A DNA stretch of 22,571 nucleotides from Candidatus Omnitrophota bacterium (GCA_016190205.1 JACPQZ010000073.1:1-22571); one strand, 5' to 3'; positions 311 through 12,079 are shown, counted from the first letter of the stretch. Program-made: numbers and translations. The notes: generated by a model from the letters alone, not told the origin.

Positions 311-372
311 CGTGAGTGGTGAGTGTAAAGTGATGAGTTCTGCTCACCACGCATCACGCACCCCTCATTACG
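311..372. repeat. Heptad inverted array upstream of tig
   Basis: The left arm (311-339) reads as 7-nt units gtgagtg, gtgagtg, taaagtg, atgagtt. The right arm (343-372) reads ctcacca, cgcatca, cgcaccc, ctcatta and is roughly the reverse complement of the left. A small loop (tgag/ctca around ttctg) closes the hairpin. It occupies the whole 5' region of tig, ends 12 nt before its start codon, and leaves no recognisable ribosome binding site. This is the first of six such loci in the window. Confidence 0.7.
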
Positions 373-384
373 TACAAATGGTTT

Positions 385-1653
385 ATGAACATTTCCATTA
401 AAAACGAAGGTCCCTGCCGCAGGCGCATCCGGGTGGAAATCTCCTTGGAGGAAGTATCCGCCCGTTTTGAGCGTTTCTGGGGTGAGTTTGGGAAAAAGGC
501 CCGTGTACCGGGATTCCGGGTGGGCAAGGCTCCGCGCGCAGTGCTTGAGAAGCAGTTCCAGGAGCGCGCCCGGCAGGACGTGGTTGAGGATCTGATTGCG
601 ACGAGCTATTGGGGGGTGGTGCGGGATAAGAAGATGCGTCCCGTTCAGCACCCTTCAATCTCTGACGTAAAATTCGCAGATGGAAAGCCGCTTGTCTATG
701 AGGCCCAGGTGGAAGTCTGGCCGGAGTTCAGACTTTCCGATTACAAGGGGTTGCCTCTCAAACGAAGGCCTGCCGAGGTGAGCGACGAAGAGGTGAATCA
801 AGCCCTGGAAGGACTTCGAAAGAGAAACGCCCAGTACGTGGACGCCGGCGCCCGGCCGCTTACCCTTGCAGATTTTGCAGTCATCGACTATCGTTGTACG
901 GTAGAGGGCCAGGAACCGGAGGAGAGAAAGAATTTTGGCGTCGAAGTAGGGGGTGAGCGCATCCTTCCGGTCTTGCGGACGGGTCTCGTGGGCATGAGTT
1001 CAGGTGAGACGAAAAAAATAGAGACCACTTTTCCTGCGGACCATGAGCGCAAGTCATGGGCCGGCAAAAAAGGCGTGTTCGAGGTTACGGTGAAAGAAGC
1101 CAAGGAGCCGCGCCTGCCCGCTTTGGACGACGAGCTTGCCAAGGACGCGGGTTGTGATTCGCTCGAAACCTTGCGCGCGAAGATACGCGAGGGTATCCAG
1201 AGACGGAAAGACGAGATCCAAAAGGAAAGCGACCGCGCGCAAGTGATTGACGTCCTGCTTTCCAAGCACCTTTTCGAGGTACCGGAATCGGTGCGCGGGC
1301 ATCAGGAAGAGCATCTTTGGGAAGCGACTGAAAACCGCCTGATGATGAGCGGCTGGCCGAAGGAGCGCATTGAAGAAGAAAAGCCGAAGCTTAAGGAGAA
1401 GATCAGGGAGGAATCCGTGCGGCAGGTGAGGCTCGCCTATCTCATCGAGGCCATCGCTCAAAAGGAGGGCATCGCCGCGAAGGAAGAGGAGATTACCTCC
1501 TGGCTGGGTGAGATCGCGCGCGAGGCCCGCACCTCCGTCGAGGCGTTGAAAAAGCGGGGACAGAACGGCCGGCTTGAGGAGGACATCCGGGACCGCATCG
1601 TGCGCGAAAAGGTCTTTCAGTTGTTGGTGGAACAGGCGGCTGTGGAAGTGTAA
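385..1653 (+). CDS. tig: Trigger factor, ribosome-associated chaperone/prolyl isomerase
   Basis: Trigger factor binds the ribosome near the exit tunnel and shelters nascent chains. The 422-residue length is normal for the family. Residues 1-115 form the ribosome-binding domain, with the signature loop VPGFRVGKAP at 41-50, where the usual FRK is FRV. Residues of about 155-245 match the FKBP-like isomerase domain (GLVGMSSGETK, then the FEVTVKEAKEP strand). The rest is the charged helical C-terminal arm domain. The ATG at 385 gives the standard family N-terminus (MNISIKNEGPCRR). An ATG at 378 is out of frame, and there is no clear Shine-Dalgarno sequence because a heptad hairpin fills the leader. 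clpP follows after 40 nt, a common tig-clpP pairing. Confidence 0.96.
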   Translation: MNISIKNEGPCRRRIRVEISLEEVSARFERFWGEFGKKARVPGFRVGKAPRAVLEKQFQERARQDVVEDLIATSYWGVVRDKKMRPVQHPSISDVKFADGKPLVYEAQVEVWPEFRLSDYKGLPLKRRPAEVSDEEVNQALEGLRKRNAQYVDAGARPLTLADFAVIDYRCTVEGQEPEERKNFGVEVGGERILPVLRTGLVGMSSGETKKIETTFPADHERKSWAGKKGVFEVTVKEAKEPRLPALDDELAKDAGCDSLETLRAKIREGIQRRKDEIQKESDRAQVIDVLLSKHLFEVPESVRGHQEEHLWEATENRLMMSGWPKERIEEEKPKLKEKIREESVRQVRLAYLIEAIAQKEGIAAKEEEITSWLGEIAREARTSVEALKKRGQNGRLEEDIRDRIVREKVFQLLVEQAAVEV

Positions 1654-1693
1654 ATCCGGGCGGCATAACATTAAATCTTGAGGAGGACTAAGC

Positions 1694-2329
1694 GTGGGCC
1701 AGACAAATAATCAGATTTTGGTACCTATGGTGGTGGAGCAGACGGGGCGTGGAGAGCGCGCCTACGACATCTATTCGCGCCTCCTCAAAGATCGCATCGT
1801 GTTTGTGGGAACTCCCATCGACGACAATGTCTCCAATTTGGTCATCGCCCAGATGCTCTTTCTGCAGATGGAAGACCCCGGCAAGGACATCAATATGTAC
1901 ATCAACTCCCCGGGCGGTTCGGTCACTTCGGGCTTGGCCATTTATGACACCATACAGTTCGTAAAATGCGACGTGAACACCTATTGCATGGGACAGGCGA
2001 GCTCCATGGGGGCAGTCCTTCTCGCCGCAGGGACGAAGGGAAAGCGCTATGCCCTTCCGCACGCGCGCATCATGATTCACCAGCCCTGGGGAGGCGTGCA
2101 GGGGGCCGCGACCGACATCAGCATTCAGGCCAAGGAGATCTTGAGGCTTAAGGACCGTCTCAATCAGATCATCGCCCATCATACCGGTCAGACCCTGGAA
2201 AAGGTTGAACGGGACACAGACCGGGACTTTTTTATGGATTCCCAAGAGGCCAAGACCTATGGGCTTGTAGACGACGTCATCGTGCATACAAAGACAATTG
2301 GCAGAGATGGCGGAAAGGATAAAAAGTAA
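1694..2329 (+). CDS. clpP: ATP-dependent Clp protease proteolytic subunit
   Basis: ClpP is the barrel-forming serine protease that degrades proteins fed in by Clp/Hsp100 unfoldases. The product is 211 residues, the usual size. The catalytic triad is visible: Ser104 in GQASSMG, His129 in MIHQP and Asp178 in RDTDRD. The oxyanion-region motif NSPGGSV is at about 71-77. The start is a GTG at 1694, chosen because a perfect AGGAGG lies at 1681-1686, 7 nt upstream; an internal ATG (residue 12) has no such site. clpX, the usual next gene, is absent here, and the next ORF starts immediately after the stop. Confidence 0.97.
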
Positions 2330-3478
2330 ATGCGAGAAGAGCCTATACTTCTAACCCCCGGCCCCACCCCTGTACCACCGGACGTATTGAAAACAATGGG
2401 CGAGCCCATGATTCACCACCGGACGCCCCAGTATCAAAAAATATTTCGCGAGACACTCGAGGAACTTCGTTACGTCTACCAAACCAAGGGGGATGTGATT
2501 ATTTTTGCGTCCAGCGGCACGGGCGCCATGGAATCTGCGGTCGCGAACACCCTTTCGCCGGGCGAGCGCGTGCTGGTGCTGGAGGCGGGGGTGTTTGGAG
2601 AGCGCTTCACCAAAATTACCCAGCGCTATGGGCAGAAGGTGGAACGCATCAGCGTTCCCTATGGTCAGCCTATGGACACGGACCGGGTGCTTGAGTATCT
2701 CAAGAGTCAAGGCAGGGGGCTTGCGGCGGTATTCTGCCAGTTGTCAGACACCTCTACGGGAATCCGGATGGAGGTGGAGCAGTTTGCACGCGCGCTTGCG
2801 AAGACCGAGACCCTCCTCATCGTCGATGCCGTGAGCGGGCTCGCGGTGGATCCCCTCAAGTTTGACGAATGGGGAGTAGACGTGGCCCTCTCCGGTTCAC
2901 AGAAGGCGCTCATGGCGCCACCGGGGCTCTCGTTCGCGGCCGTGAGCGAGAAGGCGTGGAGAAAGATCAAGCTGGCGAGGAATCCGCGATTTTACTTTGA
3001 TTATCTCCTGGCGAAGGAGTGTTACGCTCAATGGGACACGCCGTTCACGCCAGCCATATCCATCGTGCGGGCGCTCGCGCTGTCTCTCGCGCGTATTCAA
3101 AAAGAAGGGCTGGAGGCCTTTATGGCGCGCGAGGCGCGCCTGGCGGAGGCCGTCCGCGAGGCCCTGGGCGCACTGGGGCTTGAGCTCTTTACCAAGGAGT
3201 CGCAGACCGCAGGGCTCACCGCCGTCCAAATTCCGAAGGGCGTGGACGGGGCCAAGCTCCTCTCCCGGCTCATGAACGAATTCAACATCTGGATGGCCGG
3301 AGGGCAAGGGTCGATGAAGGGCAAGATCATGCGCATCGCCCACATGGGCTATATCGGCAAGGATGATCTCATCGCCGGCTTTGACGCCCTGGAGACCGTC
3401 TTGGGTGATTTGGGGTACAAGTTGAAGAAGGGAGTTTCGAAAGAGATCTTGGAGCAGCAACAGGGTGTAAGCCGATGA
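2330..3478 (+). CDS. Class V PLP aminotransferase, probable phosphoserine or serine/alanine-glyoxylate type
   Basis: This is a 382-residue fold-type I PLP enzyme of the alanine-glyoxylate/serine-pyruvate family. The N-terminal LLTPGPTPVPPDVL and HHRTPQY motifs are typical. SSGTGAMESA at 61-70 contributes to phosphate binding, VDAVSG supplies the PLP-contacting Asp166, and SGSQKALMAPPG carries the Schiff-base Lys192. The gene abuts clpP (ATG directly after TAA) and overlaps serA by 4 nt (ATGA). That coupling suggests it transaminates 3-phosphohydroxypyruvate, doing the job of SerC in serine synthesis, as proposed for similar aminotransferase-serA pairs elsewhere. Alanine-glyoxylate or serine-glyoxylate activity cannot be excluded from sequence. 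Confidence 0.88.
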   Translation: MREEPILLTPGPTPVPPDVLKTMGEPMIHHRTPQYQKIFRETLEELRYVYQTKGDVIIFASSGTGAMESAVANTLSPGERVLVLEAGVFGERFTKITQRYGQKVERISVPYGQPMDTDRVLEYLKSQGRGLAAVFCQLSDTSTGIRMEVEQFARALAKTETLLIVDAVSGLAVDPLKFDEWGVDVALSGSQKALMAPPGLSFAAVSEKAWRKIKLARNPRFYFDYLLAKECYAQWDTPFTPAISIVRALALSLARIQKEGLEAFMAREARLAEAVREALGALGLELFTKESQTAGLTAVQIPKGVDGAKLLSRLMNEFNIWMAGGQGSMKGKIMRIAHMGYIGKDDLIAGFDALETVLGDLGYKLKKGVSKEILEQQQGVSR

Positions 3479-5067
3479 CGCAGAAGTACCGTGTGCTGGT
3501 GATGGACGGGCTCAATCGTACGGGCATCGAAATCTTGAGGAAGGAACCCGCGATCCGGGTCGACGAGCGGGAACGGATCTCTCCGCCCGAGCTTAAGAAA
3601 ATCGCCTCGCGTTATGATGCCATCGTGGTGCGCAGTCAGACCGAGATCACGCGCGACATCCTGGAGCGCGCCAAAAGGCTTAAAGTCGTCGGGCGCGCCG
3701 GAGTGGGGATGGACAACATCGACGTCAAGGCAGCTACCAAGCGCGGGGTGGTGGTCATGAATTCCCCCGGAGGGAATACCATCTCGACCGCCGAGCATAC
3801 CTTGAGCATGCTTTTGGCCCTCTCGCGCAACATCCCGCAGGCCAATGCCTCTTTGCACGAATCGAAGTGGAACCGCTCGCAGTTTACGGGCGTGGAGCTT
3901 TACGGAAAGGTGCTGGGGGTGGTGGGCCTGGGCCGCATCGGCCGTGAGGTGGCGCATCGCGCCCGCGCGTTCGGCATGAAGGTCATTGCGTCAGATCCTT
4001 TTATCTCCAAGGAGAAGGCGCGGCAGCTCGAGATTGAGCTCGTGGACTTAAAAACCGTGCTCGCGCGCTCGGACTATATTTCTTTGCACGTTCCGCTCAC
4101 TCCGGAGACCCGGCACATGCTCGGCGCGGCGGAGCTCAAACGCGTCAAAACGGGCGTGCGTATCATCAATTGCGCCCGGGGGGGCCTGATCGACGAACAG
4201 GCGCTCGTTAAGGCCCTTAAGGCAAAACGCGTGGGCGGGGCCGCGGTGGATGTCTTTGAAGAAGAGCCCCCCCATAATCACCCGCTTTTAAAGTTCGACA
4301 ACGTCATCGCAACCCCGCATCTGGGGGCGGCGACGAGCGAGGCCCAGGTGCATGTAGCCCAGGACATTGCCCAGCAGGTTGCGGACTGCCTTTTGGGGCG
4401 CGGGGTTCGGAACGCCATCAACATGCCCTGGGTCGACCCCTCTGTGGCGAAGAGCGTCGAGCCCTACGTGGGCCTGGCCGAGAAGATCGGCCATTTAGAG
4501 GGCCAGCTGGTGGGCGAGCGCTTCCAGCGGGTTGAAATCCGCTACAGCGGGGAGGTGACGGCGTACGATCTGGCCCCCATGACCCTGGCTGTCTTAAAGG
4601 GTCTCATGACCCCGCTTTTTGAGCAGGAGGTCAATTTTGTGAATGCCCCACTACTCGCGAAGGAGCGCGGCATTCGCGTGACCGAGACCAAGTCTTCGCA
4701 GGTGGAGGATTACGCCAATCTCATTACGGTGGAAATCAGGGTGGACCACAAGGTCCGCCTTGTGGCCGGCACGCTCTTCGGCCGCAGGGTCCCGAGGATT
4801 GTGCGCATAGACGAGTATCATGTGGACGCTGTTCCCTCCGGTCATATGCTCTTTATCCAGAACCGCGACCGGCCCGGGATGATCGGCATGATCGGGACTC
4901 TCCTCGGGAGAAACAAGATCAACATCGCGGATATGACCCTGGGAAGGGGTTCGCGCGGCGGGATTGCGCTCACCGTGCTCAATGTGGATAACGTCGTGCC
5001 GCCCCGCGTGCTGGCCCGTATCCGCAGACACCCGCACATCGTGGCCGCGCGCCTCGTCAAGCTGTAG
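3475..5067 (+). CDS. serA: D-3-phosphoglycerate dehydrogenase
   Basis: SerA oxidises 3-phosphoglycerate to 3-phosphohydroxypyruvate with NAD+, the first step of serine synthesis. The 530-residue length fits the long bacterial form. The Rossmann motif GLGRIGREVA is at 151-160. Catalytic elements are Arg235 in NCARGGLID, Glu264 in DVFEEEPP and His282 in TPHLGA. An allosteric substrate-binding-type domain follows (about 325-455), then a C-terminal ACT domain (from about 458, MLFIQNRDRPGMIGMIGTLL), the usual site of serine feedback inhibition. It is translationally coupled to the aminotransferase by ATGA overlap and ends 3 nt before purA. Confidence 0.96.
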   Translation: MTQKYRVLVMDGLNRTGIEILRKEPAIRVDERERISPPELKKIASRYDAIVVRSQTEITRDILERAKRLKVVGRAGVGMDNIDVKAATKRGVVVMNSPGGNTISTAEHTLSMLLALSRNIPQANASLHESKWNRSQFTGVELYGKVLGVVGLGRIGREVAHRARAFGMKVIASDPFISKEKARQLEIELVDLKTVLARSDYISLHVPLTPETRHMLGAAELKRVKTGVRIINCARGGLIDEQALVKALKAKRVGGAAVDVFEEEPPHNHPLLKFDNVIATPHLGAATSEAQVHVAQDIAQQVADCLLGRGVRNAINMPWVDPSVAKSVEPYVGLAEKIGHLEGQLVGERFQRVEIRYSGEVTAYDLAPMTLAVLKGLMTPLFEQEVNFVNAPLLAKERGIRVTETKSSQVEDYANLITVEIRVDHKVRLVAGTLFGRRVPRIVRIDEYHVDAVPSGHMLFIQNRDRPGMIGMIGTLLGRNKINIADMTLGRGSRGGIALTVLNVDNVVPPRVLARIRRHPHIVAARLVKL

Positions 5068-5070
5068 TCC

Positions 5071-6348
5071 ATGTCCGCGGTCGTTGTCGTCGGGGCGCAG
5101 TGGGGGGACGAGGGTAAAGGGAAGGTCATCGATTTTCTGGCGGGCGAGGCGGATTACATCGTCCGCTACCAGGGGGGCAACAACGCCGGGCACACGGTGA
5201 GTTTCGACGGGGGCGAGTTTGTGCTTCACCTCTTGCCCTCGGGAATCTTCCGAAAGGGGAAGATCTGCGTCATTGGAAACGGGGTGGTGGTCGACCCCAA
5301 GGCCCTGGTGGATGAGATCGAAGCCCTGCGCAAGGCCGGTATCGAGGTAGGAGAGAACCTCCTCGTGAGCGATCAGGCCCATCTCATCTTTCCTTATCAC
5401 AAGGTGCTGGACCGCCACCGGGAACGCAGCATCGGGCACAGGAAGATCGGAACGACCGGCCGCGGTATCGGCCCCTGTTACACCGACAAGGCCGCGCGTA
5501 TGGGTATTCGCGTGGCGGATCTCGTGGAGGATGAGATCTTCCGGGAAGTCCTGCGCGAGAACATCGAAGAAAAAAACACCCTCTTTGAAAAACTTTACCA
5601 CGAAGTACCCCTGTCGTTCGAGGGGGTCTACGACGAGTACCGGGGGTACCAAGAGTTTTTCGCCCGCCATGCGTGTAGTTCCGCCCGGTTATTAAACCAG
5701 GCCCTGGATGAAGGAAAATCCGTTCTTTTTGAAGGTGCCCAGGGCACATTTCTGGATATCGATCACGGCACCTACCCCTTTGTGACGAGCTCCAGCGCCA
5801 CGAGCGGGGGGGCCTGCACCGGCACCGGCGTGGCCCCCAGCCGGATCGACAAGGTCATCGGCGTCGCCAAGGCTTATACCACGCGGGTCGGCGAGGGCCC
5901 CTTTCCCACTGAATTTGGATCCGAGCTCATGGTGAAGATGCGCGAGGCCGGAAACGAGTACGGCGCTACGACCGGCCGGCCCCGCCGCTGCGGGTGGTTC
6001 GACGCGGTGCTCGTGCGTCAGGCGGTCATCCTGAACGGTTTGAGCGAAGTCGTGCTCACCAAGCTGGATGTCCTCGACCGCCTGGATGAAATTCAAATTT
6101 GCGTGGGCTACCGTGTGAACGGCAAGGTCCACCCGGAATTTCCGGCCAGCCAAAAGATTTTGAGGGAGGGGAGCCCCGTGTACGAGACGGTCAAGGGCTG
6201 GAAGAAGGACACTTCCCGCCTTCAGCACCTTAAAGAGCTTCCCGCTGCGGCGCGGCGCTACATCGACCGGTTGAGCGAGATTCTGAAAATCCGTATCTCC
6301 GTGGTGTCCGTCGGCGCGCAGAGGCATCAGACTATCTTATGCGATTAA
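5071..6348 (+). CDS. purA: Adenylosuccinate synthetase
   Basis: PurA condenses IMP and aspartate using GTP to give adenylosuccinate, the committed step to AMP. The 425-residue product begins MSAVVVVGAQWGDEGKGK. The P-loop-like GDEGKGK contains catalytic Asp13, and NNAGHTV contains His41, both at the same positions as in the classic enzyme. Further signatures are GTTGRGIGP near 128-136, FEGAQG, and the C-terminal GTP/IMP-binding TTGRPRRCGWFD. The start lies 3 nt after the serA stop, so it is probably co-transcribed. Its position before uppS, where pyrH-frr often sit, is a lineage-specific arrangement. Confidence 0.97.
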   Translation: MSAVVVVGAQWGDEGKGKVIDFLAGEADYIVRYQGGNNAGHTVSFDGGEFVLHLLPSGIFRKGKICVIGNGVVVDPKALVDEIEALRKAGIEVGENLLVSDQAHLIFPYHKVLDRHRERSIGHRKIGTTGRGIGPCYTDKAARMGIRVADLVEDEIFREVLRENIEEKNTLFEKLYHEVPLSFEGVYDEYRGYQEFFARHACSSARLLNQALDEGKSVLFEGAQGTFLDIDHGTYPFVTSSSATSGGACTGTGVAPSRIDKVIGVAKAYTTRVGEGPFPTEFGSELMVKMREAGNEYGATTGRPRRCGWFDAVLVRQAVILNGLSEVVLTKLDVLDRLDEIQICVGYRVNGKVHPEFPASQKILREGSPVYETVKGWKKDTSRLQHLKELPAAARRYIDRLSEILKIRISVVSVGAQRHQTILCD

Positions 6349-6359
6349 AGAATTTGTCC

Positions 6360-6525
6360 GTGCATCGTGCTTCGTGCATCGTGCATCGTGAAACGTGCGG
6401 CGTGCATCGTGCATCGTGCATCGTTCTTCGTGGTGGCTACGGGCGGCTTGAGAAGGTGTGGAATGACTGACTCGGTATCAAACGCGGATCGAAGCACGAA
6501 GCACGAAGCACGAAGCACGAACGGT
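6360..6525. repeat. Heptad inverted array between purA and uppS, running into uppS
   Basis: The left arm (6360-6433) contains ten 7-nt units of the type gtgcatc with variants gtgcttc, gtgaaac, gtgcggc and gttcttc. The right arm (6491-6518) has four exact gaagcac units, followed by gaacggt. The two arms are complementary in type (gaagcac is the reverse complement of gtgcttc). About 57 nt of different sequence, including the likely uppS ribosome binding site and start codon, sits in the loop. The right arm is therefore translated as part of UppS. Confidence 0.88.
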
Positions 6526-7236
6526 CTGCCCACGCATATAGCGATCATCATGGACGGCAACGGCCGCTGGGCGCGGCGGCGGGGGCTCCCGCGCGTGGCT
6601 GGTCACCGGGCCGGGATACAATCGGTTCGTGCCGTGGTGCGGAAATCCCGGGAGGTGGGTGTGCGGGTGCTCACCCTGTATGCCTTCAGCATTGAAAACT
6701 GGAGGCGGCCGCCTGCCGAGGTGGACCAGCTCATGTCGTTCTTGATCGAATTTCTTCATAAAGAGCTTAATGAAATGAATCAGAACGGCATCCGTCTCAT
6801 GGCCATAGGCCGTATCGAAGGTCTGCCCGGGCGGGTTCAGACGGCGCTTAAGGAGACGATCGAGGCCACGCAGCAAAACCGCGACATGATCTTAAATCTC
6901 GCGCTCAATTACGGCGGCCGGAGCGAGATCGTGGACGCCGTCAGGCGCATCGCGGCCGACATCCGCGGCGACAAGGTTCAACCGGAGGAAATTGATGAGG
7001 ATGTCTTTCAAAAGTATCTTTACACATCCGGCCTGCCGGATCCCGACCTTTTGATCCGGACGAGCGGCGAACAGCGCTTGAGCAATTTTCTGCTTTGGCA
7101 GGTTTCTTACGCCGAGCTCTACGTGACCGACACCTTGTGGCCGGACTTTGGCGCCGAGGGACTTGTGCGGGCGATCGAATCCTACCAGACGCGCGAGCGG
7201 CGCTTCGGCGGGGTGGGGACGGCCGGCGCGTGCTGA
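6463..7236 (+). CDS. uppS: Undecaprenyl (polyprenyl) diphosphate synthase
   Basis: UppS is the cytosolic cis-prenyltransferase that extends farnesyl diphosphate with isopentenyl diphosphate to make the C55 lipid carrier for cell-wall synthesis. The active-site motif IAIIMDGNGRWA (catalytic Asp31) and the C-terminal RTSGEQRLSNFLLWQ and YAELYVTDTLWPDF motifs are clear. The ATG at 6463 is chosen because agaagg at 6451-6456 lies 6 nt upstream. It gives 257 residues. An upstream ATG at 6367 would translate only heptad array sequence. Residues 10-20 (RSTKHEARSTN) are encoded by the right arm of the array, a non-family N-terminal extension. The gene overlaps cdsA by 7 nt. Confidence 0.93.
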   Translation: MTDSVSNADRSTKHEARSTNGLPTHIAIIMDGNGRWARRRGLPRVAGHRAGIQSVRAVVRKSREVGVRVLTLYAFSIENWRRPPAEVDQLMSFLIEFLHKELNEMNQNGIRLMAIGRIEGLPGRVQTALKETIEATQQNRDMILNLALNYGGRSEIVDAVRRIAADIRGDKVQPEEIDEDVFQKYLYTSGLPDPDLLIRTSGEQRLSNFLLWQVSYAELYVTDTLWPDFGAEGLVRAIESYQTRERRFGGVGTAGAC

Positions 7237-8048
7237 AGCATTTCGCACGGCTTTCCAATGGGCCTGTCCGCATCCTGACGACTGCGGTGCTCGTGGCGTC
7301 CATCCTCGTGGTCATTTGGAAACTGCCCTACGGGGTGTTTACGGCGGTGGTGGGCGTGTTTGCCGCGCTAGGCCTCATGGAGTTTTTCAATATGGCGGGG
7401 CGCGCGGCGGTCCCTTTCATTCGTCCTGCGGCCGTTCTTTGGGGAGCGCTCCTCGCGCTTTCTCCGAATTTTGTTTGGGACGAGGCGATTCTCGGGAGCG
7501 GACTCTTTGCACTATTCATCTATTTGATGACCAGGCGGGAAGAGCGGGTCGCCGCACTGGCGCCGATGGCGGTCATCACCTTAGGGTGGTTGTACGTCGG
7601 CTGGTGCTTGAGTTTCTTTAATAAGATACGTTTACTGCCCGACGGCAACATGTGGCTTTGCTATGTCCTTTTCACAGCCAAATTGTGCGATATGGGCGCT
7701 TACGTGGTAGGAAACCGATGGGGCAGAACCCCGCTCGCTCGTACGGTCAGTCCCCGGAAATCAGTGGAAGGTGCGGCCGGTGGAATTTTAGCCGCTCTCT
7801 TATTTACCGTTATTTTTACACTCTTCGTGCGTGAGGCCCCCTTCTGGCATACATTCGTTTTGGGACTTGTGATCGGGGGGGTGGCACAGGCGGGCGACCT
7901 GGCGGAGTCACTTTTGAAACGCGAGGCGGGATTTAAGGATTCCAGCGGCTGGGTGCCGGGGTTGGGGGGCGTTTTGGATTTGGTTGACAGCCTCATTTTC
8001 ACTGCCCCCGTGGCCTATGTGTATCTCACGTGGGTCATCGGCGTATAG
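7230..8048 (+). CDS. cdsA: Phosphatidate cytidylyltransferase (CDP-diglyceride synthase)
   Basis: CdsA is an integral membrane enzyme that joins CTP and phosphatidic acid to give CDP-diacylglycerol, the branch point of phospholipid synthesis. The 272-residue product has several hydrophobic segments in its N-terminal two thirds. The family signature is recognisable: SPRKSVEGAAGG, then GDLAESLLKREAGFKDSS and PGLGGVLDLVDSL. The usual PGHGGxLDRxDS is changed, with His replaced by Leu and Arg by Leu. The GTG at 7230 is chosen because it overlaps the uppS stop (GTGCTGA) and gives a normal N-terminus. Longer in-frame readings run inside uppS and look artificial. Confidence 0.92.
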   Translation: MLKHFARLSNGPVRILTTAVLVASILVVIWKLPYGVFTAVVGVFAALGLMEFFNMAGRAAVPFIRPAAVLWGALLALSPNFVWDEAILGSGLFALFIYLMTRREERVAALAPMAVITLGWLYVGWCLSFFNKIRLLPDGNMWLCYVLFTAKLCDMGAYVVGNRWGRTPLARTVSPRKSVEGAAGGILAALLFTVIFTLFVREAPFWHTFVLGLVIGGVAQAGDLAESLLKREAGFKDSSGWVPGLGGVLDLVDSLIFTAPVAYVYLTWVIGV

Positions 8049-8059
8049 ATACGACGTTG

Positions 8060-8129
8060 GTGGATCGTGATTCGCGATTCGTGAGTCATAGTGCTTTGTG
8101 CGATCCACGATTCACTATCCACGAACCAC
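8060..8129. repeat. Heptad inverted array between cdsA and dxr
   Basis: Ten consecutive 7-nt steps can be read without a phase break from 8060 to 8129. The left arm is gtggatc, gtgattc, gcgattc, gtgagtc; two turn units are atagtgc and tttgtgc; the right arm is gatccac, gattcac, tatccac, gaaccac. The right units are reverse complements of the left type. The strand switch happens in phase with the 7-nt register. The array fills the gap and ends 18 nt before the dxr start codon. Confidence 0.88.
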
Positions 8130-8147
8130 GAAGAGAGCTATCTATTA

Positions 8148-9299
8148 ATGAAAGATTTGGTAATCCTGGGCTCGACGGGGTCGGTCGGTCAGAACGCGCT
8201 CAAAGTGGTAGAAGCGATGAATGGCCGGTTCCGTGTGGTGGGGCTCGCCTGTAACCGCAATATTGCGCGTCTTATCCAGCAGGTGCGGCGCTTTAGGGTG
8301 AGACGCGTTGCCGTGCGCGACCCGCAGGCCGCGCACGGGCTTACGCGTGTCAGGGACTTGGGCCCGCTTAAGGTTTATTCGGGTCCCGATGCCGCTGCGG
8401 AGCTCGTGCGCGACACCCCGTCCGACCGCGTCTTGAGTTCGGTAGTCGGGGCGGAAGGGCTCATCCCGATTATCGAGGCCATTCGCAAGGGGTTGGCGAT
8501 CGCCATCGCCAACAAAGAACCGCTCGTGATGGCCGGAGAGCTTATCTCGAGGCTTGCCCGGCGCTACGGGTCGCGGATTTACCCTGTGGATTCGGAGCAC
8601 AGCGCGATCTTTCAGTGTCTGAACGGGTCGGCGGGGACGCGAGACGTCAGGCGGCTTATTTTAACGGGCACCGGCGGTCCTTTTTTAAGAACGTCCAAGC
8701 AGGGTCTCAATCGCGTCCTTCCCCGGGATGCGATTCGGCACCCCAAGTGGAACATGGGTAAAAAGATCTCCGTGGATTCTTCCACCCTCATGAACAAGGG
8801 ACTTGAGATCATCGAGGCCCAGTGGCTCTTTCATGTGCCTTCGGAACGTATCGAGGTCGTTATCCATCCGGAGGCCGTCATCCATTCCATGGTCGAGTTC
8901 GTAGACGGATCCATCCTGGCGCAATTGGGGATCACGGACATGCGCATCCCCATTCAATATGCCCTGACCCATCCTGACAGGTTTCCCTCCCGCCTGCCCA
9001 GACTCGATCTGGCCCGCATTCGTACCTTTTCATTCGAAAAGCCGGATCTCAACCGTTTTCCCTGCTTGAGGCTCGCGCGCGAGGCAGCGCGCGAGGGTAA
9101 GACGATGCCCGCTGTTTTGAATGCGGCCAACGAAGTGGCCGTGGAGGCATTTCTTAAACACAAGATCAGCTTGCCGCGTATCGCGCGCGTGATCGAGCAG
9201 GTGATGTCGCGCCATCGCGCGGTGCCGGCGTTAGAGCTAAAAACCATACTTGAAACCGACGGCTGGGCCCGTGAGGAGGCGTTTCGACTTGTCAACTGA
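8148..9299 (+). CDS. dxr: 1-deoxy-D-xylulose-5-phosphate reductoisomerase
   Basis: DXR converts DXP to 2-C-methyl-D-erythritol 4-phosphate with NADPH and a divalent metal, the first committed MEP-pathway step. The 383-residue length is typical. The NADPH motif GSTGSVGQNAL is at residues 8-18. Other motifs are ANKEPLVMAGE, metal/substrate-binding VDSEHSAIFQCL, and SVDSSTLMNKGLEIIEAQWLF. The common ANKESLV reads ANKEPLV here. The ATG at 8148 gives the canonical MKDLVILGSTGSVG start with a weak gagag sequence upstream. A longer reading from 8091 would only add heptad-array residues. It overlaps the probable rseP start. Confidence 0.96.
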   Translation: MKDLVILGSTGSVGQNALKVVEAMNGRFRVVGLACNRNIARLIQQVRRFRVRRVAVRDPQAAHGLTRVRDLGPLKVYSGPDAAAELVRDTPSDRVLSSVVGAEGLIPIIEAIRKGLAIAIANKEPLVMAGELISRLARRYGSRIYPVDSEHSAIFQCLNGSAGTRDVRRLILTGTGGPFLRTSKQGLNRVLPRDAIRHPKWNMGKKISVDSSTLMNKGLEIIEAQWLFHVPSERIEVVIHPEAVIHSMVEFVDGSILAQLGITDMRIPIQYALTHPDRFPSRLPRLDLARIRTFSFEKPDLNRFPCLRLAREAAREGKTMPAVLNAANEVAVEAFLKHKISLPRIARVIEQVMSRHRAVPALELKTILETDGWAREEAFRLVN

Positions 9300-10401
9300 C
9301 TGGCTTGTGAATCTCCTGTACACAGTCATCCCGTTCACCGTAGTCTTAAGCGTGCTCATATTTGTGCATGAATTCGGCCACTTTTGGGTGGCCCGGCGGT
9401 GCGGTGTGCGGGTGGAGAAGTTTTCTTTAGGGTTTGGCAAAGAGCTTTTCGGGTGGTCGCGGGGTGAAACGCGCTATTCATTGAGCGCGGTGCCTTTTGG
9501 CGGGTACGTCAAAATGGCGGGCGAGAACCCCGGAGAAGATCACGGAGAGCCCTGGCACTTCTTCACGCAGCCCATTTGGAAGCGGTTCCTCATCGTGGGG
9601 GCCGGACCGGGTGTAAATTACGTTTTAGGTCTCGTGCTGATCATCACCCTTTACCTTATTGGAAATCCCAAGGTGCCGCCTACTATTGGAGTGTTGAGCG
9701 AGGGGTATCCGGCTCAAGGAGCCGGGCTTCAAGTGGGTGACCGCATCACTGCTGTTAACGGACGAACGGTGCATTCCTTTTCGGACGTCATCTTTGGGAT
9801 CCAGGGCCAAGTCGAAGGGGTGTGTGCGATTAAAGTCGAGCGGGGCGGAGAGACCCTAGAGTACGCCGTCCAACCCAAGGTCGAGGAGGGGATAGACCGT
9901 TACGGGCGCAAGGCCCCGGTCGCCAGGGTGGGGATAGGCCCTGTGCAAACGGTCGAGCGGGAACGCCTGCCTTTCTTCGGCGCCGTCGGACGGGGTCTTA
10001 AGGACACCTGGTTTTTCACGCAGACGACTTATCAGGGGCTGTGGTACCTCGTCACGGGCCAGGTGGGCTTCCGCAAGTCCGTAACGGGACCGATTGGGAT
10101 CCTGGTCATTACCGGGGAAACCGCGCGCTTGGGGTTACCCTACCTCCTGCAGTTTATGTCCATTATCAGCGTGGCGCTGGCCATATTTAACTTTTTACCT
10201 ATACCGGTGCTGGATGGGGGCCATCTCCTGTTTCTCGTGCTGGAGAAGCTAAGAGGCAGGCCAGTGAGTGCAAAGATACAAGACGGCGTCCAGCAGGTGG
10301 CGTTTGCCCTGCTTCTTACGCTCATGTTCGTGGTGACCATCAATGATGTGGTCAATTTCCGGATTCTGGAGAGGTTTGTGGAGTGGTGGCCGCTGAAGTA
10401 G
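9289..10401 (+). CDS. rseP: RseP/RasP-type intramembrane zinc metalloprotease (site-2 protease)
   Basis: This is a membrane-embedded protease that cleaves transmembrane segments, classically of anti-sigma factors and leftover signal peptides. The zinc-binding HEFGH motif lies in the first membrane helix. The C-terminal NFLPIPVLDGGHLLF motif supplies the third metal ligand. A single PDZ-like domain is seen in the middle (from about VPPTIGVLSEGYPAQGAGLQVGDRI). About 370 residues with one PDZ is nearer RasP than the two-PDZ E. coli RseP. The TTG at 9289 is chosen because AGGAGG lies at 9274-9279, 9 nt upstream. It overlaps the end of dxr. An ECF sigma/anti-sigma pair further downstream is a possible but unproven regulatory partner. 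Confidence 0.92.
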   Translation: MSTDWLVNLLYTVIPFTVVLSVLIFVHEFGHFWVARRCGVRVEKFSLGFGKELFGWSRGETRYSLSAVPFGGYVKMAGENPGEDHGEPWHFFTQPIWKRFLIVGAGPGVNYVLGLVLIITLYLIGNPKVPPTIGVLSEGYPAQGAGLQVGDRITAVNGRTVHSFSDVIFGIQGQVEGVCAIKVERGGETLEYAVQPKVEEGIDRYGRKAPVARVGIGPVQTVERERLPFFGAVGRGLKDTWFFTQTTYQGLWYLVTGQVGFRKSVTGPIGILVITGETARLGLPYLLQFMSIISVALAIFNFLPIPVLDGGHLLFLVLEKLRGRPVSAKIQDGVQQVAFALLLTLMFVVTINDVVNFRILERFVEWWPLK

Positions 10402-10403
10402 TG

Positions 10404-10652
10404 GGGTAGCGTGTTCGGGAATCGTGAATCGTGGATCGTGAATCGCAAGAAAAAAATTAAAAACAGGCAGCGCCATGCAAATAGTCGGGTAGCCTGTTCG
10501 GGAATCGTGGAGCGTGGAGCGTGGAGCGGATAGCGTTTAGCGTATAGGGAGTTAGAACCATCTCCTATCCGCTGTACGCTATGCGCTATACGCTGTACGT
10601 AGCGGGAATCGGGAATCGCAAAAAAATCCAGATCATAAAATGCAAATAGCCA
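10404..10652. repeat. Duplicated heptad-array module ending in the ispG start
   Basis: Two modules are present. Both begin with a 23-nt near-identical sequence (10404-10426 and 10487-10509, one mismatch: gggtagc then g or c then tgttcggg). Both end with atgcaaatag (10475-10484 and 10640-10649), and the second copy is the ispG start. Module 1 has units gggaatc, gtgaatc, gtggatc, gtgaatc. Module 2 has gtggagc three times, ggatagc, gtttagc and gtatagg (10507-10548), then the opposite arm ctatccg, ctgtacg, ctatgcg, ctatacg, ctgtacg (10565-10599), then gggaatc twice. Module 1 appears to be a duplicated ispG leader including its first codons, which are closed by a stop after five codons. Confidence 0.85.
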
Positions 10653-11587
10653 GGCGAAAGACTCGAGAGATAAAGATCGGCAAGGTTACGATCGGCGGCG
10701 AGCATCCGATCGCGGTCCAGTCCATGACCAAGACCCGCACGAGCGACGTGGAGGCGACCGTGGCCCAAATCCACCGCCTGGAGGAGGCGGGCTGTGACAT
10801 CGTACGGGTGGCGGTTCCTGACCGCGCTGCCGCGCGCGCCCTGGGCGCCATCAAGAAGCGGATTCGTATTCCCCTCGTGGCCGACATCCATTTCTTTTGG
10901 GAGCTGGCCATGGAGGCCATGGACGCGGGTGCTGATAAGATCCGGCTCAATCCCGGTAATCTCCAGCGTAAAGAGCATATCTTCAAAATCGTAGATAAGG
11001 CCAAGTCGTATCGGGTGCCCATGCGGATCGGGGTGAACGCGGGAAGCGTCTTCGACAAGCTCGACTACGTGGACTTTCTAAAATCTAACCCCATGGAACG
11101 GTCGGATTCGGTCATTCAGAGGATGGTGGGACGGGGGCGGGTCTATCTGGACATATTTGAACAGGCCGGCTTTCACGACATTGTCGTAAGTTTGAAGACC
11201 TCCGACGTGCGGAATACCCTGGAGGCCTATTCCACTATGGCCCCGCTCTGTGATTATCCCTTTCATCTTGGGATTACAGAGGCGGGCTTCGCGGAGGCCG
11301 CCATCATCAAATCCAGCATCGGGATCGGGTTTCTCCTTCTAAACGGCATCGGCGACACGATTCGCGTGTCCCTTACGGAAGACCCTGTGCACGAAGTCCA
11401 TGTGGCCAAGAAGATCTTGAGGGCCGTGGGCCTGGCGGAGGGGACGGACATCATCTCCTGCCCCAGCTGCGGCCGCTGTGACATCGACCTTTTCGGCCTC
11501 GTCCGGGAGATCGAGGAGAAGGTGAGCGCCCGCGACAAGGCACGCAGTACGCAGTACGCAGTACGCAGTACGAACCAGAGTTTGTAA
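10640..11587 (+). CDS. ispG: 4-hydroxy-3-methylbut-2-enyl diphosphate synthase, major part, ending at an in-frame TAA
   Basis: IspG (GcpE) reduces methylerythritol cyclodiphosphate to HMBPP using a [4Fe-4S] cluster, the penultimate MEP-pathway step. Residues 1-260 form the TIM-barrel domain (RRKTREIKIGKVTIGG, VQSMTKTRT, ADIHF, IRLNPGN). SCPSCGRCDIDL at 273-284 holds the first two cluster cysteines (Cys274, Cys277). Four acgcagt heptads then encode ARSTQYAVRST, and a TAA at 11585-11587 closes the frame. The same frame continues at once with LAIMGCEVNGPGE, the remaining cluster Cys and Glu. The gene is thus interrupted by a single stop without a frameshift. There is no clear Shine-Dalgarno site. 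Whether it is functional, split or a sequence error is unresolved. Confidence 0.88.
   Translation: MQIARRKTREIKIGKVTIGGEHPIAVQSMTKTRTSDVEATVAQIHRLEEAGCDIVRVAVPDRAAARALGAIKKRIRIPLVADIHFFWELAMEAMDAGADKIRLNPGNLQRKEHIFKIVDKAKSYRVPMRIGVNAGSVFDKLDYVDFLKSNPMERSDSVIQRMVGRGRVYLDIFEQAGFHDIVVSLKTSDVRNTLEAYSTMAPLCDYPFHLGITEAGFAEAAIIKSSIGIGFLLLNGIGDTIRVSLTEDPVHEVHVAKKILRAVGLAEGTDIISCPSCGRCDIDLFGLVREIEEKVSARDKARSTQYAVRSTNQSL
11542..11576. repeat. Heptad array inside ispG
   Basis: Four exact acgcagt units (11542-11569) are followed by one acgaacc variant. They lie within the ispG reading frame, between the CPSC cluster motif and the NGPGE segment. The protein carries about 13 more residues between these motifs than I would expect of IspG, which agrees with the array length. 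No opposite arm was found nearby. Confidence 0.85.
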
Positions 11588-11596
11588 CTTGCCATT

Positions 11597-11797
11597 ATGG
11601 GCTGCGAGGTGAACGGCCCGGGAGAGAGCAGGCAGGCGGATCTCGGCCTCGCGGCGGGCCGCGACAGCGCCGTCATCTTCCGCAAAGGCCAGGTCGTGCG
11701 CCAGGTCAAAGGCCAGGAGCAGTTCGTGGAAGCCTTCATGGAAGAGTTGGAAAAACTAGATGGAGAAACCAGAAACCAGAAACCAGTTACCAGATAG
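11597..11797 (+). CDS. ispG: IspG C-terminal fragment after the in-frame stop
   Basis: This is a 66-residue reading, MGCEVNGPGESRQADLGLA and onward, that matches the end of IspG. It contains the third cluster cysteine (Cys3) and the glutamate of NGPGE, followed by the usual GLAAGRDSAVIFRKGQVVRQV and a short helix. It is in the same frame as the upstream ispG segment, separated by TAA at 11585 and the codons for LAI. The ATG is simply the conserved methionine of MGC. No ribosome binding site precedes it, so independent translation is doubtful. The last residues (GETRNQKPVTR) and the TAG stop come from the following heptad array. Confidence 0.6.
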   Translation: MGCEVNGPGESRQADLGLAAGRDSAVIFRKGQVVRQVKGQEQFVEAFMEELEKLDGETRNQKPVTR

Positions 11798-12079
11798 ATT
11801 CCAGAAACCAGATACCAGGTCCGTACTTCGAACTTCGAACATCGACCTTCGCCCCGCAAATTCCCCTTCGGGGATCGCGGGTCGCCTCGCGGCCGCCGGA
11901 GGCTGCTGTGCGAGGTGTATGACGTCAGACACGCGCTCGTTTCAGCCGGACACGACAGAGCGTCTGCGACGGTGTGCGAAGTCCGAAGTTCGAGGTTCGA
12001 TGTCCGATCGTCGGTTTCGTCTGGTTTCTGGTATCTGGTATCTTCTGGTTTCTGGTTACTGGTATCTGGTTACTTGTTA
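11765..12079. repeat. Nested double-family heptad inverted array between ispG and proS
   Basis: The outer left arm (11765-11817) has units gaaacca, gttacca, gattcca, gatacca. The outer right arm (12021-12079) has ctggttt, ctggtat, ctggtta, cttgtta. Inside these are a second family on the left (acttcga, acttcga, acatcga, 11825-11845) and its opposite arm on the right (gtgcgaa, gtccgaa, gttcgag, gttcgat, gtccgat, 11974-12008). The left arm keeps one 7-nt phase across the change of family (11804 to 11845). The GC-rich centre has its own hairpins: CCCGC/GCGGG (11853-11881) enclosing CCCC-TTC-GGGG, and CCTCGC/GCGAGG (11885-11915). The array supplies the ispG stop and reaches to 2 nt before the proS start. 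No gene is apparent within it. Confidence 0.9.

Follow-up and report, generated by a model that had tools for sequence, protein, structure and literature searches.

The analysed window, the whole stretch of 22,571 nucleotides, is a contig (C67) of the metagenome-type source genome G000 (1.65 Mb in 76 contigs, 92.8% complete). It carries tRNA-Gly, tig, clpP, a class-V aminotransferase gene, serA, purA, uppS, cdsA, dxr, rseP, ispG, proS, rimP, nusA and infB, among others. The assignments of tig, the aminotransferase gene, uppS, cdsA, dxr, ispG and proS are supported by Pfam, and the remaining names come from reading frames. Within and between these genes lie arrays of 7-nt units, none of which has a match in Rfam, the tRNA being the sole hit. 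The array loci and associated features are as follows.

Locus A, 307-374, + strand: copy of a 66-70 nt hairpin family with 3-4 heptads per arm.
Locus B left arm, 6359-6431, + strand: CGTG-N3 heptads reading inward (lag-7 run score 33; Tandem Repeats Finder, 10.6 copies of period 7).
Locus B right arm, 6490-6521, + strand: CGAAGCA heptads complementary to the left arm.
Locus C, 8058-8132, + strand: degraded CGTG/CACG heptad hairpin in the cdsA-dxr gap (lag-7 identity 0.65; z = -3.3).
Locus D, 10404-10620, + strand: nested CGTGAAT, CGTGGAG, GCGTATA and CGGGAAT heptads in the rseP-ispG gap (z = -4.1).
Locus E, 11542-11572, + strand: (ACGCAGT)4ACG, exactly 31 nt, inside ispG and with no inverted arm.
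In-frame TAA in ispG, 11585-11587, + strand: just past the locus E array; the downstream block resumes in the same frame.
Locus F, 11764-12076, + strand: CCAG-family hairpin element in the ispG-proS gap, with outer ACCAG heptads and inner TTCGAAC heptads (z = -9.5).
Locus F central insertion, 11847-11976, + strand: about 125 nt, unrelated, missing from the L034 copy.

Identity at a lag of 7 nt is 0.54-0.89 at all six loci, compared with about 0.25 at most other lags, which confirms the original prediction that these loci are built of 7-nt units. Among lags below 14, long runs in the window occur at lag 7 only, and Tandem Repeats Finder reports a period of 7 for five of the six loci. The same prediction placed inverted arms at five of them, and loci A, B, C, D and F indeed fold 3.3-9.5 SD beyond dinucleotide shuffles (4.3 SD for locus A and z = -4.8 for the hairpin of locus B). 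The right arm of locus B may lie within the N-terminal coding region of uppS; the UppS Pfam match starts at residue 29 of the frame that begins at 6463, past the right array.

Three of the loci, A, C and F, belong to hairpin families whose copies are dispersed over the genome. The family of locus A has the consensus CTGTCGTGAGTGNTGAGTGGTGAGTGATGAG-loop-CTCACCACACATCACACACCACTCACGACAGG with conserved ends, CTGTCGTGAGTG...CACTCACGACAGG, and about 15 further copies at unrelated genome positions (about 16 in all). It is the one family tested for covariation, of which it shows little, a single compensatory pair that is uninformative. Sequence related to locus C is found at many other CGTG-family places in the genome. 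The CCAG hairpin element of locus F has at least 19 dispersed related copies, and intact ones, about 175-195 bp long, lie at L034:13227-13422, L062:5416-5592, L067:7215-7396 and L091:10459-10636. Parts 25-112 and 238-336 of the locus F query run contiguously in L034:13228-13419, and the insert of about 125 nt that separates them in the window is itself not a high-copy sequence in this genome. Gaps between five aligned CCAG copies measure exactly 7 nt, which is direct evidence for the gain and loss of units. No target duplication was seen by eye at the ends of the CCAG element.

To place these loci in the context of the genome, 1.59 Mb of it was scanned, including 17.8 kb of N-masked sequence and leaving about 1.58 Mb unmasked; runs were called at a score of at least 14, and seven runs due to N-masking were subtracted. 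The lag autocorrelation proposed with the original prediction yielded about 260 runs at lag 7 and only 0-5 at each of the other lags from 4 to 23 that are not multiples of seven; the outcome named there as refuting did not occur. Lags 24 and 31 are likewise elevated genome-wide, because arrays of three to four units are linked by a 10-nt step. In total, 343 runs, representing about 100 different canonical units, form 234 clusters and make up 0.81% of the 1.58 Mb of unmasked DNA. Campylobacter-type IspG loci, taken as a control, show no lag-7 excess. The 7-nt arrays are thus real and occur throughout the genome.

The units fall into families, including ACGCWGT (more than 50 arrays), CCAGNNA, CGTGNNT, CGGGAAG, AGCGACC, ACCGATN and ACGTCCC, and the same unit is found at tens of sites with unrelated flanks. 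The earlier view that unit sequence is unconserved and unique to each locus therefore holds inside the window only. Units of the large families consist of a fixed core of about 4 nt and about 3 variable nt, the changes being mostly A/T exchanges; such fixed cores with toggling positions could, judging from the sequences, reflect sequence-specific recognition. Array lengths are quantised, with a peak at 30-31 nt that usually corresponds to four units plus 2-4 nt. Counted per family and without length bias, the arrays of three, four and five units are distributed as follows.

ACGC.GT: 9, 34 and 7
CGGGAA: 5, 16 and 6
AGCGACC: 6, 11 and 1
ACCGAT: 14, 17 and 1
CCAG: 83, 92 and 11
CGTG: 25, 38 and 21

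Four is the commonest count in most large families, and the peak is equally strong in the units ACGCAGT, AGCGACC and ACCGATA, which have no G tract.

The inverted layout also extends to the genome scale, as had been proposed: 56% of arrays of standard length (26-36 nt) have an inverted partner of at least 65% identity within 300 bp, compared with 1.5% for a null of random regions. At the same time many arrays are unpaired, 151 of the 234 clusters being solitary. Strand polarity is fixed in each family and reads inward (CCAG 16:0, GCGT 17:0, CGTG 11:0). Hairpins may be nested, for example with CGTG arms outermost, followed by CCAG arms and, innermost, CGAAATT arms. Units drift within a single array, and single arrays contain no internal palindrome. 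As for target duplications, matches of 2-12 nt between the flanks of arrays are not above chance. A flank motif, GCTCGCTA, is weakly enriched about 6 nt outside some arrays. Many arrays are located at gene junctions; others lie within leader peptides or in loops on the surface of conserved proteins.

Arrays inside genes mostly comprise a single arm, 29-38 nt long. In-frame arrays were identified in CarA (directly before the RFKVVAIDCGIKYN block), dihydrolipoamide dehydrogenase (Lpd), KdsB and PolA, as well as in frames that, from a reading of the sequence, are FtsK-like, GlmM-like, FolK-like and MurI-like. Alignment with PDB structures reveals extra residues at the array site in CarA and Lpd and an altered loop in KdsB, and the array of PolA lies between two aligned segments. 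Prepilin leaders carry arrays ahead of GFTLIE-type motifs. That the arrays are translated in frame, as parts of loops and leaders of proteins, fits the heptad-like peptide repeats that the original prediction mentioned for proteins predicted from uncultured bacteria.

In the window this type is represented by locus E, which sits between blocks 1-283 and 289-343 of the IspG profile. The spacer to the MGC block comprises 46 residues, compared with 34-42 in 12 homologues from the phylum. The two pieces of ispG match GcpE separately and no second copy of the gene was found in the genome; given the in-frame TAA after the array, ispG is interrupted in this assembly. Unrelated heptads, AGGGTCC (L189), CTGTCAA (L210) and CAAGCTT (L203), occupy the same IspG loop in three other genomes of the phylum.

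The comparison with relatives covered genomes of the same phylum. The pattern CGTGNNT matched 34 of 384 phylum genomes, from many families, and matches of the reversed control pattern in other genomes proved to be heptad arrays of another unit. At loci from these genomes, arrays are mostly 29-34 nt long, about 31 nt, with unrelated units. Twenty unbiased 20-kb stretches from relatives with good assemblies (two of the stretches are masked for the most part) contain just four lag-7 runs; array density is therefore very uneven within the phylum.

Several known kinds of repeats resemble these arrays in part. Bacterial MITEs such as RUP, NEMIS and ERIC are small dispersed inverted-repeat elements without genes; in most of them the ends are TA, the target is duplicated and a partner transposase exists. 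The elements described here are likewise small, dispersed, inverted-repeat and gene-free, and family A and the CCAG family have the MITE-like combination of terminal inverted repeats, dispersed copies and no gene; TA ends, target duplications and a partner transposase, however, were not seen here. The original prediction had set the arrays apart from REP/BIME, CRISPR, MITE and microsatellite patterns, and of these contrasts the one with MITEs is weakened, since the families act like small palindromic mobile repeats. Cyanobacterial STRR heptanucleotides, reportedly described by Mazel and colleagues in 1990 as both dispersed and tandem, share with our arrays the dispersal of tandem heptanucleotides; to our knowledge, neither an inverted hairpin architecture nor in-frame protein insertions have been described for them. 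Among the traits of heptanucleotide SSRs and STRRs, the arrays display head-to-tail 7-nt units and whole-unit change, but not local origin without dispersal.

The closest anatomical counterparts are the heptamers GGGAATC of Xanthomonas and GGGGA(T/C)T of Nostoc (Rehm et al. 2015, PMC4692102). Arrays of the Xanthomonas type are mostly intergenic, mostly of four units, form 70-75 convergent inverted pairs per genome and lie at different genes in sister species (PMC4692102). The original prediction knew of no description of such a DNA element, yet these published arrays with convergent inverted pairs are similar: the 7-nt period, the four-unit mode and the convergent inverted pairs are common to both. 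In contrast, Xanthomonas and Nostoc each have one G-rich unit per genome, whereas about 100 units, mostly without G tracts, are present here, together with nested hairpins, in-frame insertions into enzymes and a distribution over many genomes of one phylum. Direct repeats of TAACTGA in Beggiatoaceae, Cyanobacteria and Bacteroidetes (MacGregor 2015, PMC4679880) are also heptamer arrays that rarely exceed four units (in Beggiatoaceae, sets of 2 to 6 units number 68, 40, 19, 1 and 1), and they lie upstream of genes. Unlike our arrays, they consist of a single unit and have almost no inverted pairs and no hairpin. Finally, Rickettsia palindromic elements (RPEs) are non-autonomous palindromes found between genes and in frame within conserved proteins (Ogata et al. 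2000; reviewed in PMC2229807). In-frame insertion into conserved genes is thus shared, but RPEs are 105-146 bp long and are described neither as built of 7-nt units nor as changing sequence from family to family at a constant period. In the published work on heptamers and palindromes we found no account of a single genome in which many unrelated units share one geometry.

How such arrays arise can be judged against the above observations and against candidate trans factors, for which 21 array-rich genomes were compared with 36 (Y1) or 20 (other factors) array-poor ones, array richness being a pattern proxy. That ordinary heptanucleotide microsatellites are born in place by slippage, the polymerase footprint favouring a step of 7 nt, agrees with the exact 7-nt indels between copies, the failure to find MutS1 in the source genome and the heptamer excess known from several bacteria, for which the footprint idea was proposed (PMC4692102). 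We nevertheless consider this origin unlikely: one unit turns up at tens of sites that are unrelated to one another, counts peak at four with no steady fall, inverted pairs have fixed polarity and entire hairpins are dispersed. For families with tens of copies it is largely refuted, and it could still hold for single-copy units. Loss of MutS as a cause was rejected, there being no association with array richness (MutS is present in about 7-8 of 21 array-rich and 5 of 20 array-poor genomes). SbcD is above the cut-off in none of 41 phylum genomes, array-poor ones included, so that its loss is rejected as sole cause and would be permissive at most. A dedicated enzyme that adds or inserts four 7-nt units at breaks, in a telomerase-like manner or by filler synthesis, with the two break ends giving rise to convergent arrays, would account for the sharp quantum of four units and 30-31 nt over unrelated units and genomes, for the fixed convergent polarity and for the failure to find target duplications. 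Even so, it appears quite unlikely, as the drift of units inside one array clashes with a fixed template, and neither RVT_1 nor Cas1 was found in the source genome, each being present in just 2 of the 21 array-rich genomes. Copying from a fixed short template, one of the mechanisms originally suggested, is accordingly not supported in its reverse-transcriptase (telomerase-like) form. The lack of a detectable Cas1 in the source genome also led us to reject a CRISPR array.

Mobilisation of REP/REPIN-like elements by Y1 (RAYT/IS200-type) transposases is brought to mind by the four Y1_Tnp genes of the source genome, by paired inverted arms with a loop and, again, by the missing target duplications. 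Y1_Tnp, however, has no match in 5 of the 21 array-rich genomes and is present alike in array-poor ones, arrays of the source genome are not concentrated at its Y1 genes, and single arrays contain no palindrome, all of which makes this route very improbable. We give as little credence to a regulatory role, whether as sites for a repeat-recognising protein or as RNA hairpins affecting neighbouring genes. In its favour are the 4-nt cores, which are conserved and separated by variable positions, the many arrays at gene junctions and the proposal that Beggiatoaceae TAACTGA heptamers are regulator sites (PMC4679880); about 100 unit types, insertions within unrelated enzymes, the scant covariation of the single family tested and the absence of Rfam matches speak against it. 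In Xanthomonas, the four-unit count of GGGAATC was linked to quadruplexes (PMC4692102), and CGGGAAG arrays do hold four GGG tracts. Yet this link cannot hold for ACGCAGT and AGCGACC, because both have a four-unit peak without any G tract, and the peak of ACCGATA is just as strong. With most families lacking GGG, G-quadruplex formation is refuted as a general cause, and that it sets the unit count here is extremely improbable.

On balance, the most probable explanation is that the arrays are dispersed, non-coding selfish repeat families, mostly hairpins, with bodies of 7-nt units: selfish palindromic repeats that behave like RPEs and are built like Xanthomonas heptamers. This explanation draws on the observed family structure, the fixed inward polarity, the indels of whole 7-nt units, the preference for four units, the insertions in frame and the recurrence of the geometry with other units across the phylum. 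Judging from copy number and flanks, copies would reach new sites either by transposition or by copying of a template, in both cases with no duplication of the target; no transposase for them and no empty site at the DNA level was found. Units would then be gained and lost in place when replication slips in steps of 7 nt. Part of the tolerance for hairpins and slippage may come from the lack of the hairpin nuclease SbcCD in the lineage and of MutS in this genome, and insertions would persist only at harmless sites, with no host function required. Of the mechanisms originally suggested, slippage by 7 nt at a time draws direct support from the exact 7-nt indels between homologous copies; slippage alone accounts for neither dispersal nor the four-unit peak. 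A purely selfish model, in turn, does not predict a 7 by 4 geometry common to unrelated families. It is conceivable, though rather doubtful, that an as yet unknown host enzyme, indifferent to sequence and strict in geometry, makes or inserts four-unit blocks (about 30 bp) of fixed polarity throughout the phylum and perhaps also in Xanthomonas and Nostoc.

Repeat families are usually recognised by shared sequence, whereas here what the families have in common is numerical: steps of 7 nt, most often four of them, and convergent arms, on sequences that are unrelated between families and between genomes. The over-representation of heptamers in some bacteria, an old remark, thereby becomes directly testable and separable from the quadruplex explanation. 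In metagenome genomes, array insertions can mislead both gene calling and assembly. For the organisms themselves, insertions in the loops of essential enzymes constitute a natural source of new peptide segments.

Heptad arrays, i.e. runs of usually four 7-nt units, are unevenly distributed along the source genome: a single array is present in ~133 kb, made up of stretches L029 and L087-L089 of contig C27 together with L027, L085 and L086 of contig C25, whereas other contigs with similar G+C content carry one array per 2-6 kb. Elsewhere in this genome, arrays of the ACGC family (unit ACGCWGT) form part of a longer repeat:

46-238 and 3312-3423 of stretch L038, also in stretches L020, L111 and L112: 81-nt tandem repeat, in which a start codon context is joined to an ACGC heptad array

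The repeat precedes apparent GspK or prepilin genes, and its arrays encode the leader peptide.

At 71-290 of the window, a different set of repeats lies beside the tRNA-Gly gene. About 24 nt from the 3′ end of this gene are found again downstream, at ~267-290, and an inverted copy is located near 110-128. Between the 3′ end and its downstream copy there is another dispersed repeat of ~155 nt, which has relatives in stretches L109, L088 and L074 of the source genome.

Among the 41 sampled genomes of the phylum, both array-rich and array-poor, SbcD (TIGR00619) was above the cut-off in none, and MutS1 is missing in most. In stretch L113, a gene for a Y1-type (IS200/RAYT-like) transposase is encoded on the opposite strand amid RHS-like repeat protein reading frames, which it partly overlaps.

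At 11542-11587 of the window, ispG is broken by an in-frame TAA directly after the 31-nt array. Beyond this codon the same frame continues into the conserved C-terminal block, and an ATG is located 9 nt 3′ of the TAA.

The phylum includes three further genomes (loci L189, L203 and L210) whose IspG has this same inter-block loop encoded by unrelated heptad arrays. Given these unrelated arrays at one position, the loop is a recurrent landing place for heptad arrays.
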